Source: Nitrospirota bacterium | Lineage (GTDB): Bacteria; Nitrospirota; Thermodesulfovibrionia; Thermodesulfovibrionales; JdFR-88 | Assembly: GCA_021812785.1 (NCBI GenBank) | Contig: JAKAMR010000099.1 | Location: forward strand, 1 to 8,143 | Reading direction: 5' to 3' | DNA length: 8,143 nt | In this document: positions 1,849 through 8,143 of the stretch, in pieces | How the letters are laid out: each line of letters begins with the position of its first letter | Numbering within the stretch: position 1 is the first letter of the stretch | Notes under the pieces: model-generated | What the model saw: the letters and a program-made list of their open reading frames with translations, nothing else | Told to the model about the DNA's origin: nothing | The model's database searches: none | Program-made: the position numbers and the translations under genes

Positions 1849-4824
1849 TTACCTGATGTCCGGGGGAAGACCGCGATTTTCCTCCCCCGTATCGGGCCGG
1901 AGCGGGGAGACTGCTCCTGAATCCTTGACCGGCTGCCTGGTCTGCCGCTCTGGTCCCGGCCGGGAAGCATGATTTGGCCGTGCGCCTCTTACAGAAAGCA
2001 GGCACAGGATATCCCCGCGAAAACCATTATCTCCTTCGCCGCACATTTTCAAAATATGCCCGATGTTGGCGTGATCGTAAATGTCGATCCAGTCCTCTTT
2101 CCGGCGTATCGAAAGCCCGGGGTTTAGGATATAATGGCCCCTGTTTTTCCTTGTGAAAAGTTTTTTCCCGTAGGCATTGGCGCTATCCGATTCGTTTTTT
2201 GAAAGGAGCGCTGAGATATAGGCGCGCTTCTTCCGGTAATCGGGGATGACGCTGCCAGGCAGGGACCCCAGGATGTACGCTATGGCAACGGCGGGAAGCG
2301 GGACGGTATCGGCGCATCCGCCGAAGATATCCGCATATCCGCTGCTGATAAGGGACCGGAAAGCGGCGAAGAAGACGTGAAACAGGAGAAACTCTCCCTG
2401 CCTTCGATCGATTTTGACCAGCTGGCCGTTCACTTTCAGACTCACCATCGATGGCGCCAGAAGCTCGTGCACCGCCGGAAATCCCGCCTGGGCGAATTTT
2501 TTGTCCTCGATAATACGCTGCAGCGCCCACTGCCAGGCCGTCAGGCCGTAATTATCGGTCAGCTCCGTGTCCGCGCCCGCCCCGAGCAGCTCACGGACAA
2601 GAGCCGCGTTGCCCGCCCGCGCCGCCATCATAAGCGGCGTCTTGTTGAATACGTTCCGGTGGTCCACTCCGTAAAGTTCGCACTCCCTTATGACTTCCTT
2701 GAAATAAGCGCCGGAATACCGCTGCAGATATTGTCCGGAAAACTGCATCTTCTGCTGTTTGTAGAGGGAATGGTTGAGCAGCATCCGGCCGTCCTTCAAA
2801 TAATAGATCCGCCCGGCCTTGTCGAACCCCTGTCCGCTCAATGCCCTTATCAGCATGGGTTCGTCATGGAAGAGGGCGTATTCAAAGAGCGTTTTCCTGG
2901 GTTTTTGAGAAGCCTCCTTATTGGACAGACCCAGAAGATCTGTCACCTTCTCCGGAGTGCAGACCTCCCATGGGACCGGTTTGGTTTTGATGATGTCGCG
3001 TCTGATCTGATCCGCCTGTTCCTGTTTGCCCTGAAGCTCAAGCCTCCTGGCCTCGGCCTGCCAGTCCGCGGTGCTGGACTCCTTCATCTCGATTGAAGCC
3101 ATCTCCCTCAGGTCCTTTATGCCCAGCATCCGGATCAGGGGATGTCCCGTGTCGCTCTCAATCAGGTATAATCGCCGCACCGCGCGGGTTATGGCGACAT
3201 AAAGGGAGTTTACGTAGAACTTGTAAGCCTCAAGCGTCTTGTCAGTTTTGTCACGAGCCCTCCGGTACTCAAGGTCTCCTTCCAGGCCGTCAGGGTTGAC
3301 GCCATTAATTATCTCACTGAAATTGGCCCTCTCTGAAGAGATGAAATTCACGAGTATGACGTTCTCATACTCTAGCCCCTTCGCCTCCTGTATGCTGAAA
3401 AGAAGCGGGGTATCGAAGAACCGGCGCGCATCCGCCTTGTCCTCGTCGCGCATCACCAGGACGGCGAAGCTCGTGGACTTGCGGGTCTTCTGATTGAGAT
3501 CACGCTTAGCCTTTTCACTGTCCCTTACGAACACGACCTCACCGGCGTCGGCAGAGACGCTCTTCATGAGATAATTGCTCTCCTTGTCGATGGAGCCGAA
3601 GCGTTTTTGCTTGATCCTGAGCAGGGCGTTGGCCAGGTTGGTCAGTGCGACGGAGTTTCGGAAGTTGGACTGCAGTATCCGCGTCACTTTTTGCGTCTCA
3701 ACCGGCTCCGAGGCGTAAAACATGGATTTCAGGTTGCTCCAACGGAAGAAATTGGGATGGACTATCTGGTTGGAATCCCCGCTCAGGATAAAATTCCCGG
3801 GCCGCTTCAGGCTCTGGAGGACGAGATGGAGCTGGACGTTTGTCATATCCTGCACCTCGTCGACCACCACGAAATCGTAAGTCTGCCTGACAAGTCCAAG
3901 ATAGTCGTGGGCCAGGATATTGGGATCGTACAGGCCGTTTCCCCTGAGAAAGGCCAGATATTTTTCAAACAGGTCATATACGAGACCGCGCTCGGCCTCG
4001 GGATAGATGGATTGACGGACGCCCAGACCCAGATAATCGTCACGGCTCAGCCACGGCTTGTCGATTACGGAGCCGGTGACCACGCCCCTGAACTCCTCAT
4101 ACAGGCGATGGGCATCGGCGACCCTCTGCTGTCTCGGAAACCGCATGAGCCACCTTGCAAATGCGCTGTAAGCGATCTCCCTGCCCTCCGGCACGCGCAT
4201 CGTTTCGAGATATTCCCTGAAGGATAAAAATGTCAGCTCCTGGCCGTCATTTTCGTAGCGGTTGCCGTAATAGATGTTCCTTGAATTGTCCGCCAGGTAC
4301 CGGGACAGGGTCACGTAGAGCACTTCGCCGGCCGCCACCTTCATCTTCTCAAGGGTAAGGGCCGTCTTGCCGCTGCCTGCGGGGCCGATGACGATTAGCG
4401 GGGCCGGCTCGCGGTATACCTCGTCCTGCCAGGGATCAAAGGATATTATCTTGTCGAGGAGGTGAAACCTCCTGTCTAAAGGGTTGACATAGACAAGGGA
4501 GGGTAGGGCCTCCCTTGCAAGCCCGGGCTTATCCACGGGCAGGATACTCGACTCATTTGGCTTTGCCCCGTTAAGAAATTTCGATTTTTCGTAGGCGTGA
4601 TTTCGCACGACCTCCAGGATGAGGGCATGACGAGCCCCCTCGTACTCCATGATCTTAAAGAGCAGCCGGTTGCTGTCATCAAGCTTTGCCCTGTAGAGGC
4701 CGTGCCCGGCCAGTTTTTTAACCTGGGCGGACTGGAAATCATCTTTTTCAAGGAAACCTATCAACTTTTGATACTGGCGGCCCAGCCCCGAAATGTCGAG
4801 ATCTGAATATTCAAGTATTTTCAT
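1849..4824 (-). CDS. UvrD-like SF1 helicase with RelE/ParE-like N-terminus and ankyrin C-terminus, 991 aa
   Basis: This is a large cytoplasmic superfamily 1A (UvrD/Rep-like) ATPase. Residues about 1-85 resemble a RelE/ParE toxin fold (KKLAGHGLYRAKLDDSNRLL, then an ILEVVRNHAYEKSKF strand and helix). The helicase motifs follow in order: Walker A GPAGSGKT (147-154), Walker B VVDEVQD (320-326), motif III GDSNQ (349-353), an NFRN motif IV (387-390), KGLEYENVI motif V (482-490) and VAITRA motif VI (543-548). All key residues are present, so ATPase activity is expected. A TPR-like helix pair lies at about 587-612 and one to one-and-a-half ankyrin repeats at about 726-770 (NKTPLMMAARAGNAALVREL). The region from about 800 to 935 is unrecognised, and the last 45 residues are low-complexity. 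The start is the ATG at 4824, with GAGGAG 13 bases upstream. It is divergent from HU. A role in DNA or RNA remodelling, stress or anti-phage defence is inferred, not shown. Confidence 0.85.
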   Translation of the reverse strand: MKILEYSDLDISGLGRQYQKLIGFLEKDDFQSAQVKKLAGHGLYRAKLDDSNRLLFKIMEYEGARHALILEVVRNHAYEKSKFLNGAKPNESSILPVDKPGLAREALPSLVYVNPLDRRFHLLDKIISFDPWQDEVYREPAPLIVIGPAGSGKTALTLEKMKVAAGEVLYVTLSRYLADNSRNIYYGNRYENDGQELTFLSFREYLETMRVPEGREIAYSAFARWLMRFPRQQRVADAHRLYEEFRGVVTGSVIDKPWLSRDDYLGLGVRQSIYPEAERGLVYDLFEKYLAFLRGNGLYDPNILAHDYLGLVRQTYDFVVVDEVQDMTNVQLHLVLQSLKRPGNFILSGDSNQIVHPNFFRWSNLKSMFYASEPVETQKVTRILQSNFRNSVALTNLANALLRIKQKRFGSIDKESNYLMKSVSADAGEVVFVRDSEKAKRDLNQKTRKSTSFAVLVMRDEDKADARRFFDTPLLFSIQEAKGLEYENVILVNFISSERANFSEIINGVNPDGLEGDLEYRRARDKTDKTLEAYKFYVNSLYVAITRAVRRLYLIESDTGHPLIRMLGIKDLREMASIEMKESSTADWQAEARRLELQGKQEQADQIRRDIIKTKPVPWEVCTPEKVTDLLGLSNKEASQKPRKTLFEYALFHDEPMLIRALSGQGFDKAGRIYYLKDGRMLLNHSLYKQQKMQFSGQYLQRYSGAYFKEVIRECELYGVDHRNVFNKTPLMMAARAGNAALVRELLGAGADTELTDNYGLTAWQWALQRIIEDKKFAQAGFPAVHELLAPSMVSLKVNGQLVKIDRRQGEFLLFHVFFAAFRSLISSGYADIFGGCADTVPLPAVAIAYILGSLPGSVIPDYRKKRAYISALLSKNESDSANAYGKKLFTRKNRGHYILNPGLSIRRKEDWIDIYDHANIGHILKMCGEGDNGFRGDILCLLSVRGARPNHASRPGPERQTRQPVKDSGAVSPLRPDTGEENRGLPPDIR

Positions 4825-6057: not shown

Positions 6058-6069
6058 CTGCGTCCACCT
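6058..6069 (+). other. Left insertion junction of the IS110 element (left target plus element start)
   Basis: CTGCGTCC at 6058-6065 is repeated exactly at 6118-6125, inside the first RNA loop, as expected for a left target read by its guide. TCCACCT at 6063-6069 is the reverse complement of AGGTGGA at 6210-6216 in the second loop, as expected for the right-donor side. The recombination core must lie in or beside this overlap. Confidence 0.55.
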
Positions 6070-6079
6070 ACCCGCAGAG

Positions 6080-6090
6080 TATGTTATAAA
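6080..6090 (+). promoter_or_regulatory. -10 candidates for bridge RNA promoter (half-promoter at left end)
   Basis: TATGTT (6080-6085) and TATAAA (6085-6090) are overlapping -10-like boxes with no good -35 in the flanking host DNA. Joining the two ends of the element would place the right-end TTGACA at suitable spacing. With a GT core, TTGACA lies 18 bases from TATGTT. With an AC core, TTGACC lies 16 bases from TATAAA. Confidence 0.5.
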
Positions 6091-6265
6091 AGGAGGGGAA
6101 AAAGGCAGGAGGACTCGCTGCGTCCTGGGTCTGAGAATCCTGAGTACTGTGTGTCCCCTGCCTCCCAAAGCCCTTATAGGTTGATTGGGTCTTCGAACCC
6201 TTGTGACAAAGGTGGATTGGCTGGGAGGCAATTCCTGTCTTTTCGAAATCTGAGGACGGGAGGTG
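6091..6265 (+). ncRNA. Predicted IS110 bridge RNA with target- and donor-binding loops
   Basis: IS110 elements make a non-coding RNA from the left end that guides the recombinase to target and donor DNA. This stretch, between the -10 boxes and the transposase start, folds by eye into that plan. Domain 1: GGCAGG and GGAC (6104-6109, 6111-6114) pair with CCTGCC and GTCC (6157-6162, 6153-6156), with one bulged A. They enclose an internal loop and an apical hairpin GGGT/ATCC (6127-6130/6137-6140). Domain 2: TCCC and AGCC (6163-6166, 6169-6172) pair with GGGA and GGCT (6223-6226, 6219-6222). The apical hairpin is GGGT-CTTCGA-ACCC (6187-6200). Domain 3: CCTGTC/GACGGG (6234-6239/6255-6260, one G-U). 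Loop matches to the ends are: left target 6118-6125, right target 6144-6150, left donor 6180-6185, right donor 6210-6216. RNA ends are inferred. Confidence 0.7.
6258..6263 (+). promoter_or_regulatory. Transposase ribosome-binding site inside the bridge RNA 3' hairpin
   Basis: GGGAGG lies 7 bases before the GTG at 6271 and decides that start. Its first three bases (6258-6260) are in the 3' arm of the CCTGTC/GACGGG hairpin. Folding of the RNA and translation of the transposase would therefore compete. Confidence 0.5.
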
Positions 6266-6270
6266 GCGGC

Positions 6271-7456
6271 GTGTACAAACTTTTTGTGGGGGTTGATATC
6301 TCTAAGGAGACATCATCTGCCCATGGTCTGGATGAAAATGGGGAGAGCCGTTTTTCTATGACCTTCTCCATGAACGAGGAGGGGTTTTCAAAGCTGTACA
6401 AGGCATTAAAAAGCAATTGCAAGGACCTCGCCAAGGCAATGGTGGCGATGGAGTCAACGGCGTGTTATCACATCAATCTCTTTTCTTTCCTCAACTCAAA
6501 AGGGACCGATGCATTTGTTATCAATCCTCTGCTGATCGCCAATTTTGCCAAACTCTCTCTGCGTAAAACGAAGACCGACAAGAAGGACGCTCTTACTATC
6601 GCCCGATTCATCCTGGCCAATAAGGATTCTGTTTCTCAGATCGCTATATCCCAGGACCTCCAGGACTTAAGGGATCTTGCAAGGGAGAGGGAATCATTAA
6701 CTGACCAGATATCGGAAAGCAAAACCGAAATCAAAAGGCTTCTTCAAACGCTTTTCCCTGAACTGGAGACCATTTGCGAAGTTCACACTATGGTGATGCT
6801 CGATCTTCTGCAGGAATTTCCTTCTGCCCGCGCGGTAAAAAGCTGCAAAGCGCAAGGAAATCGAGCAAGCGCTTAAAAGGAAAGGGGTAGGTCCCAGATT
6901 GACCTACACGGCGGATGATCTGATCAAAGCCGCGCGTGCCTCCGTTGCGACTGTCAGCCCGGCAAAGGAATTTATTCTTAAGGGCAAGATATCCACTCTG
7001 CTGCATCTCAAAGCCAGGCGTGACGAACTCACCAGGGCGCTCACAGAGTATTGCAAATCTGCCATCCTGGAGGATTTGAATATCATCACCTCGATTAAAG
7101 GCATAGACAAAGGCACCGCGACCACTTTCCTTGCGGAGTTGGGAAACATCGACAATTTCGACTCGCATAAAAAACTTATTGCCTTTGCTGGTATTGAGCC
7201 GACCGTTTATCAATCAGGGAAATTCGATGGCAAGAGCAGAATTTCAAAACGCGGCAATCGCCATATGAGAAGAGTTATCTGGATCATGACGACATGTGCA
7301 ATTCAGCACAATGACACATTCAGGGCATATTACACGAAAAAGAGAGAGGCAGGCCAGTGCTACAAAAAAGCGGTTTGCGCAACGGCTCATAAGCTACTTC
7401 GGGTTATCTTTGCCCTGCTTTCTCAAAAGGTCTATTTTGAGGAGGACTGTGCATAG
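6271..7456 (+). pseudogene. IS110-family transposase (DEDD recombinase), split by a one-base frameshift
   Basis: IS110 transposases are RuvC-like DEDD enzymes with a second domain carrying a catalytic serine. They use a bridge RNA to recombine donor and target. From GTG 6271 the first frame carries D9 (VGVDISK), E61 (AMESTACYH), D103 and D106 (KTDKKDALTIARFI), so the DEDD set is complete. It runs in frame to about 6843, then leaves the family sequence and stops at 6874-6876. The protein resumes one base later (from 6845: AKRKEIEQALKRKGVG) and ends at 7456. The second part holds the transposase_20 domain (ITSIKGIDKGTATTFLAELG) and the YQSGKFDGKSRISKRGN region, where the serine at 7214-7216 is the likely nucleophile. 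Dropping one A from the A5 run at 6837-6841 restores about 394 codons. A recent mutation or a homopolymer read error are both possible. Confidence 0.85.
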
Positions 7457-7466
7457 TTGACAGTAC
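7457..7466 (+). promoter_or_regulatory. Right end of the IS110 element with an outward-facing -35 box
   Basis: TTGACA (7457-7462) is a perfect -35 beginning immediately after the transposase stop codon. In the inserted form no -10 lies at the correct distance. ACAGTAC (7460-7466) is the reverse complement of GTACTGT (6144-6150) in the first RNA loop. GTTGA (7456-7460) recurs at 6180-6184 in the second loop. The position fits the left-donor and right-target junction. Confidence 0.55.
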
Positions 7467-7560
7467 ATGTTATCTGGCAATATAAGAGGTATCCTCAAAA
7501 AGTGTGTAAATAGTTAAAGGCGGTGTATCCTTTCAAGTTGAGACCAATCAACCGTAAGAA

Positions 7561-7566
7561 AGGAGA
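7561..7566 (+). promoter_or_regulatory. Ribosome-binding site of the IS256-type transposase
   Basis: AGGAGA, 7 bases before the GTG at 7574, supports that codon as start over the in-frame GTG at 7523, whose upstream sequence has no comparable site. Confidence 0.6.
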
Positions 7567-7573
7567 CACCACC

Positions 7574-7949
7574 GTGGGAAAGAGTATCACCAGGACGGCA
7601 AAGCCGTCAAGCGCAGCATATGAGGTATTGGAGGACATGGTCCGGGCTAAGGTGCAGGAATTCATACAGGACATACTTGAAGAAGAGGTCACGGAATTCC
7701 TGGCGAGGGGAAAATCCGAACGGATAAAAGGGATCGACGTTCCTGGCGGATATCGCAACGGTTACGGGAAAACCCGGAAATTTGCACTGATGAGCGGGAC
7801 GATAAAGATCAAAAGACCCCGGGTGAGGGGTACGGAAGAGCAGTTTGTAAGCAAGGTATTGCCGCTTTTTAAGCGCCGTACAAGAGAGGTTGGGGATATG
7901 CTGCCTGAGCTATATCTGCACGGGCTCGCTACGGGGGACTTCGACCTAG
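7574..7949 (+). pseudogene. IS256-family transposase, N-terminal fragment (about 125 codons)
   Basis: IS256-family (Transposase_mut) enzymes are DDE transposases of about 400 residues. This fragment has the typical N-terminal half: VQEFIQDILEEEVTEFLARG, the PGGYRNGYGKTRKF motif, IKIKRPRVRGTEEQF, and LPELYLHGLATGDF. After GDFDLA the family sequence stops abruptly, and three foreign residues (ending GC) lead to TGA at 7958. The DDE catalytic core lies entirely beyond the break, so the product is inactive. The start chosen is GTG 7574 with its AGGAGA site. The interruption coincides with a CTAG tetranucleotide (7946-7949) and the presumed end of another element. Confidence 0.85.
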
Positions 7950-8143
7950 CAGGTTGTTGAAAAACACCTATCAAATGGTATGAATAGTGCATATCATTTT
8001 CAGCCTCAATAGATGCCGAAACGAGGAGGAAGACGATATGCGTGGTGACGATAAAAATACTGAAGGATTTTTTTGTTATTTATCAGCGGAATCGGTGGTG
8101 CCCGCAGATCATCCACTGCGGCCGATACGGCGGATGGCTGAAG
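7950..8143 (+). mobile_element. IS5/IS1182-type element, left end (continues past window)
   Basis: The element begins at or next to 7950, with CAGGTTGTTGAAAAAC as the likely outer end. GGTTGTTGAAAAA termini are common on DDE elements of this type. CTAG (7946-7949) just outside is a plausible 4-bp target duplication; the second copy and right repeat are outside the window. About 88 bases of leader precede the transposase start. Confidence 0.6.
8038..8143 (+). CDS. IS5/IS1182-type transposase, N-terminus (3' end outside window)
   Basis: The frame from ATG 8038 reads MRGDDKNTEGFFCYLSAESV, then VPADHPLRPIRRMAE, and is open to the end of the window. MRG-D at the N-terminus followed by (Y/F)-x-S-x-E-x-x-VP-x-DHPLR-x-IR is the hallmark of the DUF772 N-terminal domain of IS5/IS1182 DDE transposases. 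AGGAGGA (8024-8030) is a strong ribosome site 7 bases before the ATG. The DDE catalytic domain is outside the window, so activity cannot be judged. It is oriented like the IS256-type gene it interrupts. Confidence 0.85.
   Translation, partial: MRGDDKNTEGFFCYLSAESVVPADHPLRPIRRMAE

Follow-up and report, generated by a model that had tools for sequence, protein, structure and literature searches.

The window analyzed here, a stretch of 8,143 nucleotides from a Nitrospirota bacterium, very probably carries an insertion sequence of the IS110 group at positions 6067–7460, with a bridge RNA encoded in its left end. It is a known kind of bridge-RNA system, with the core dinucleotide CA in place of CT. 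From this element and its relatives, we lean slightly towards the view that one group of Nitrospirota IS110 elements, the window's included, has had its bridge RNA naturally reprogrammed between kinds of tolerable insertion site: in the window lineage a dispersed repeat, with a CA core tracked by both right guides and TTGACA in the circle, and in a sister lineage a Shine-Dalgarno sequence plus start codon, rebuilt on insertion.

Anatomy of the element and its bridge RNA

The element combines DEDD and Transposase_20 domains with a long left end and a short right end, the features that define the IS110 group; the IS1111 layout is the reverse of this arrangement. The transposase gene (6271–7456, forward strand, as are all element features below) matches the Pfam families PF01548 (DEDD_Tnp_IS110, 1.5e-36) over 6271–6876 and PF02371 (Transposase_20, 2.4e-26) over 6899–7456, the latter in another frame than the N-terminal piece. 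Because these two open pieces lie in different frames and the same stretch is uninterrupted in relatives, the gene of the window copy is broken, between about 6829 and 6898, and the element would need a recombinase supplied by another copy. Among PDB sequences, the N-terminal piece matched ISCro4 (2.5e-8) and IS621 (2.2e-5); ISCro4 (PDB 9t56) is its best solved relative by sequence, at a distant 37.2 bits. The left end (6067–6270), which holds the bridge RNA, measures 204 nt if translation starts at GTG 6271, the start chosen here. The right end, TAGTTGA (7454–7460), doubles as the left donor and extends 4 nt past the stop codon (7457–7460). No relative of the element was found in the viral contigs searched, and every one of the 2567 plasmid records with a match fell below 60% identity. 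Elsewhere in the window, the N-terminal part of a Mutator-type transposase (7523–7960; PF00872, 1.7e-12) begins some 57 nt beyond the target on its right side and stops near 7960, marking an IS-dense neighborhood, and a 991-aa reading frame on the reverse strand (1849–4824) has UvrD-like helicase and ankyrin-repeat matches.

The conserved two-loop bridge RNA spans 6104–6231, with a target-binding stem-loop (6104–6162) followed by a donor-binding stem-loop. An alignment of 11 sequences (A1) gave a consensus fold of 27 pairs, 5 of them with two-sided changes, that forms two stem-loops with an internal loop each. A covariance model (R1), run at E <= 1e-6 on 395 genomes from the phylum to which the metagenome-assembled genome G002 belongs, had hits in 25 of them. 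The structure rests on conservation, since minimum-energy folding of the window copy by itself did not outperform shuffles (z -0.49). Rfam at gathering thresholds returned nothing in the window or in 12 loci, and nothing for the target repeat described below.

Guide–target matches and the position of the core

The sequence-only reading had proposed that the first loop binds the target, on the strength of two matches that both proved exact. CTGCGTCC stands at 6058–6065 and again at 6118–6125, with no third occurrence in the window, and GTACTGT (6144–6150) is the reverse complement of 7460–7466. For matches anywhere in the window the statistics are only modest, as shuffles are mildly exceeded: the 2 matches to CTGCGTCC compare with a shuffle mean of 0.23 (4 of 200 shuffles reach 2), and the 3 matches to GTACTGT or its complement, which include a further copy at 1816–1822, with a mean of 0.17 (1 of 200 reaches 3). 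What places the two matches above chance is that each lies on the side of a single loop where it is expected and in the right orientation, together with their recurrence in relatives that have other guides. As now assigned, the left target is CTGCGTC in host DNA (6058–6064), identical to the left guide, and element-free repeat copies read GTC-CA at this point. The left target guide, CTGCGTC plus CT (6118–6126), agrees with target plus core at 8 of 9 positions; the mismatch is the second core base, and the left guide is thus imperfect across the core, keeping CT against CA. The right target guide, GTAC plus the core complement TG (6144–6149), is the complement of CA-GTAC at 7461–7466 and covaries in relatives. 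Its right target in host DNA is GTAC (7463–7466), complementary to 6144–6147, and uninterrupted sites read TGCGTC-CA-GTAC. In both loops it is the right guide alone that carries the core complement TG.

The same reading had placed an AC core within a 7+2+5 target, TGCGTCC-AC-AGTAC, and in this it was wrong. The core is CA (left copy 6065–6066, right copy 7461–7462), common to both junctions and present once in uninterrupted sites, and the target is 7+2+4, CTGCGTC-CA-GTAC. An AC core demands the empty site TGCGTCCACAGTAC, and a CA core demands TGCGTCCAGTAC. Among the fetched loci, which were chosen for likeness to the flanks and so make the 12-mer count no random sample but the two-length comparison a fair one, TGCGTCCAGTAC is exact in 4 distinct contexts, within one mismatch in 8 and within two in 15, and TGCGTCCACAGTAC occurs in 0 contexts at up to 2 mismatches. 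This places the core at CA, and the AC core with its 14-nt target was rejected. A7460 belongs to the element and not to the target.

Most relatives have a CT core at the same offset. The core complement in the right target guide (AG for CT, TG for CA) fits the core in 32 of 32 rows, a count that uses the left core, or the right core where the left is missing; the cores of L023 are unlike, CT on the left and CG on the right. The part of PMC11208158 drawn on here describes the core T as nearly invariant and contacted by Gly63. Judging from the motif, Gly63 probably corresponds to the residue three positions beyond the putative catalytic Glu. Unlike in IS621, this putative core-contact residue is Ala in the window element, as it is in L012 and L013, all with a CA core. 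Ala also occurs there in L010, L011, L022, L023 and L044, which have a CT core, and Gly in L014, L016, L019, L021 and L032 (CT core) and in L018 (no assigned core). We rejected the exchange of Gly63 for Ala as the cause of the CA core, since only half of the relation holds: among 14 proteins, Ala is found in 3 of 3 with CA and in 5 of 10 with CT.

Other insertions of the lineage

Other insertions had been predicted to share the target. A close variant is indeed common to the lineage, but the prediction fails at one right junction of four, that of L001. With the window counted, CGTC-CA ends 4 of 4 left junctions and CA-GT begins 3 of 4 right junctions. The Nitrospirae genome G002 (L002, L003) holds close copies of the element, identical at 114 of 123 nt in part of the left end; its left junctions read GACTGCGTC-CA, GGAGTCCGTC-CA and TATAACGTC-CA, with unlike flanks, and its right junctions CA-GTACTCC and CA-GTTATCC. 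Agreement with the left guide is 7 of 7 for the window, 6 for L005 and for L006 and 4 for L007, and agreement with the right guide is 4 of 4 for the window and L002 and 2 for L003; the G002 values are not based on guides read independently for each copy, since these junctions are contig ends sharing about 123–127 nt of element, and the pairing of left with right ends in G002 is an inference. L001, on a contig filed under Candidatus Amesbacteria, is identical to the window element at 400 of 402 nt, and its right flank, CA-CCTATG, is not fitted by the right guide. This flank (L001 401–420) resembles the element's own left end (CA-CCTA). In L013, a right end lies about 160 nt beyond the transposase gene, with 23 nt that agree with the window right end (GGACTGTGCATAGTTGACAGTAC); it may be a remnant of another copy or belong to one.

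Because CGTC-CA ends all four left junctions, the shared CGTCC could be thought to belong to the element rather than the target, and the match would then say nothing about targeting. We regard this as hardly credible, since uninterrupted sites contradict it: repeat copies that lack the element hold the same bases (the four exact TGCGTCCAGTAC contexts, and GTC-CA in 17 of 17), the bases further left differ among the four junctions, and the left sequences of relatives track their own guides.

The target is part of a dispersed repeat

The flanks are part of a dispersed repeat, with 29 matching places (E up to 0.01) spread over 7 of 12 family genomes, G002 and G235 among the seven. Uninterrupted sites, which the sequence-only reading had called for as a check, were found in repeat copies of related genomes (other than the window's own orthologous site), and these, together with the close target variant shared by lineage insertions, uphold the interpretation of the first loop as target-binding. 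When compared with the joined L007/L002 flanks, L099 from the congener G235 matched at 82% over 148 nt, including 17 nt left of the core, and L091 and L092 from G002 at 77% and 75%, with a match that begins 61 nt to the left of the core. In all 17 element-free copies aligned across the insertion point it reads GTC-CA, followed by G in 16 of 17. Judged from such copies, rather than from the window's orthologous site, insertion adds or removes no target bases except one shared core. A repeat profile built from 16 copies, without L117, found the window left flank at E 0.0021 in a 135-kb set, with the match ending exactly at 6066. It also found L002 (1.8e-18) and L001 (0.0056); L007 (0.12), L005 (0.94) and L003 (4) were not significant, and L006 was unlisted on that strand. 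With L117 included the window scores 8.9e-6, a value inflated by L117, whose sequence immediately right of the core resembles the left end of the element. A column tally anchored on TCCAG was excluded from the evidence. L117 itself (G398:C17:19965-20011) is a repeat copy that continues with CACCTACCCGCAC, the first bases of the lineage's left end (G002 copies), and then with the repeat again. On contig C7 of G002, a 2.5-kb stretch (L096 632–3140) lies between two parts of the repeat and carries a tyrosine-recombinase-like reading frame next to one that by eye resembles an IS91-type transposase.

We also considered that the repeat might be an integron attC, which would make the element an IS110 counterpart of the attC-targeting IS1111 elements. 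Two right flanks adjoin short reading frames resembling RelE/HigB-type toxins (by eye, without a family call), which are common in cassettes, and the left flank of L005 contains GCCTAAC. On the other hand, six repeat copies folded no better than mononucleotide shuffles on either strand (RNA energies; z -1.70 to +1.04, no strong fold). In G002 and G235, the two genomes searched for an integron integrase, the best match scored 106 bits against a curated cut-off of 265, and partial matches below the cut-off also turned up in all 14 control genomes. Two of the 29 repeat places share a contig only at G002 C7 and C47; elsewhere there is one. The integrase-like reading frame at G002 C7 is no evidence for an integron, since it adjoins the IS91-type-transposase-like frame. 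On these grounds, with 2 genomes searched for the integrase and 6 copies folded, the attC reading is unsupported and we consider it improbable.

Guides and targets covary across relatives

Agreement between guides and targets was compared with that of permuted guides. For the left guide and left target (7 nt; 33 rows, 17 guides) the mean agreement was 4.58, against 2.94 (sd 0.31) when permuted, a level reached in 0 of 20,000 permutations; leaving out the last base gave 3.61 versus 2.25, again with 0 of 20,000. For the right guide and right target (4 nt; 13 rows, 11 guides) the mean was 3.31 versus 1.57 (0 of 20,000). Left fits span 7 of 7 (window) to 1 of 7 (L016, L063) and right fits 2 to 4 of 4. 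For these counts the junctions were placed manually, guided by conserved end motifs, and a single genome contributes several of the rows. L039 and L058–L060 were counted in the 33-row left comparison only, and L013 was counted despite its distant right end. Outside the counts are L001 (guide off the contig, and a right flank that would not match it), L015, L017, L020, L026 and L027 (bridge RNA absent on the locus or not sought), L025 (degenerate left end and poor right target), and L018, L037, L042, L047, L052, L056, L057 and L068 (loop or end not assigned).

This bears on the proposal that the matches reflect chance, or common ancestry of guide and flank, with protein contacts choosing the sites. 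The mildness with which window-wide shuffles are exceeded (4/200 and 1/200) and the poor fit of some relatives speak for it. It is nevertheless extremely unlikely in our view, as guides agree with their targets better than permuted ones do, left and right alike, and where the core has changed from CT to CA the right guides of both loops have changed with it.

Donor loop, circle junction and proposed mechanism

The second loop can be read in the same way against the element's own ends. The probable left donor guide, AGGTTGA plus TT (6178–6186), agrees with the right end TAGTTGA at 5 of 7 positions. The putative right donor guide, GG plus the core complement TG (6211–6214), is complementary to CA-CC at 6065–6068. 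In relatives, in readings made without statistics, GG-AG accompanies CT-CC, AG-AG accompanies CT-CT (L010) and GG-TG accompanies CA-CC. The putative donor-loop handshake guide GA (6215–6216) is complementary to TC (6063–6064) of the left target; L012, L013 and L040 have left targets ending in A, and their guide begins with T. The part of PMC11208158 used here describes handshake guides in IS621, as well as a promoter split between the two ends. By position and analogy with IS621, TG at 6150–6151 would be the target-loop handshake guide, and T6150 could pair with A7460 as the counterpart of the IS621 handshake base, which would account for the seventh base in the right-hand match. The joined ends would read TTGA-CA, 17 nt and TTATAA (6084–6089), so that TTGACA and TTATAA may serve as the -35 and -10 of a promoter formed only in the circle; TTGACT would arise instead in CT-core relatives.

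In the mechanism we propose, the target loop of the bridge RNA would carry a copy of the insertion site and the second loop would likewise match the element's own joined ends. The element would excise as a circle, and the DEDD/serine recombinase would insert this circle by core-for-core exchange, yielding CTGCGTC-CA-[element]-CA-GTAC. The intended target would be the dispersed repeat, with GTC-CA-G as its most constant part. The circle, the strand exchange, the handshake pairing and the circle-junction promoter are modeled on published IS621 work; the anatomy, guide–target matching, covariation, uninterrupted sites and repeat are read from the sequences themselves.

A sister lineage points to Shine-Dalgarno targeting

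In a sister IS110 lineage (L014, L016, L021, L024, L034, L038, L039, L051, L055 and L061–L066), the right guide ends in GG-AG, the guides look like a Shine-Dalgarno sequence with a start codon, and the targets resemble the guide-derived CATTTCAC-CT-CCTTT, the complement of AAAGGAGGTGAAATG. Of 15 insertions with this GGAG guide, 14 abut a start codon, compared with 0 of 18 for the others (Fisher 1.8e-8); an insertion counts as abutting when it lies 3–11 nt from an ATG that opens, on the opposite strand, a frame of 40 or more codons. The rows lack independence, as 8 of the 15 come from G261 and 2 from G377, and the pattern was noticed before the guide-based group was defined. Among positions sampled along the flanks, 511 of 9318 lie this way. 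The sequences thus point to Shine-Dalgarno targeting by the sister lineage. With CT-CCTAC as its left end, an inserted element would recreate GTAGGAG ahead of the gene, and translation might then continue undisturbed. A full-text literature search, with PMC11616780 and PMC11187229 in scope (each in part) and with preprints and most subscription journals outside it, returned no title on an IS110 element that targets Shine-Dalgarno or ribosome-binding sites. The sister lineage is more novel than the window element.

Relation to known systems and significance

The window element resembles IS621 of E. coli, as described in the parts of PMC11208160 and PMC11208158 used here, in having a bridge RNA in a long left end, left and right target guides and putative donor guides in two loops, a core dinucleotide at each junction, a target in a dispersed repeat (REP; PMC11208160), a predicted -35/-10 pair split between right and left ends, and candidate handshake positions. 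It differs in its CA core, with CT retained in the left guide, and in that the six copies of its repeat folded here lack a strong hairpin. It is also like the seekRNA elements ISEc21, ISPa11 and ISKpn4, in which, by the portion of PMC11187229 drawn on, the non-coding region supplies an RNA that directs an IS110/IS1111 transposase to its short target sites, some of them in repeats. According to the same portion, ISPa11 and ISKpn4 target REP and attC; they are of IS1111 type with the RNA downstream of the transposase gene, whereas the window RNA lies upstream.

The target of a bridge RNA was thus legible in raw sequence, and uninterrupted sites provided a check that corrected the joint by one base. 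The natural change of core from CT to CA, tracked by both right guides, is useful for asking how freely the core can change. If confirmed, the sister lineage would provide an RNA-guided element that inserts at ribosome-binding sites and restores what its insertion breaks, and it would become testable how elements of this kind spare their hosts from harm.
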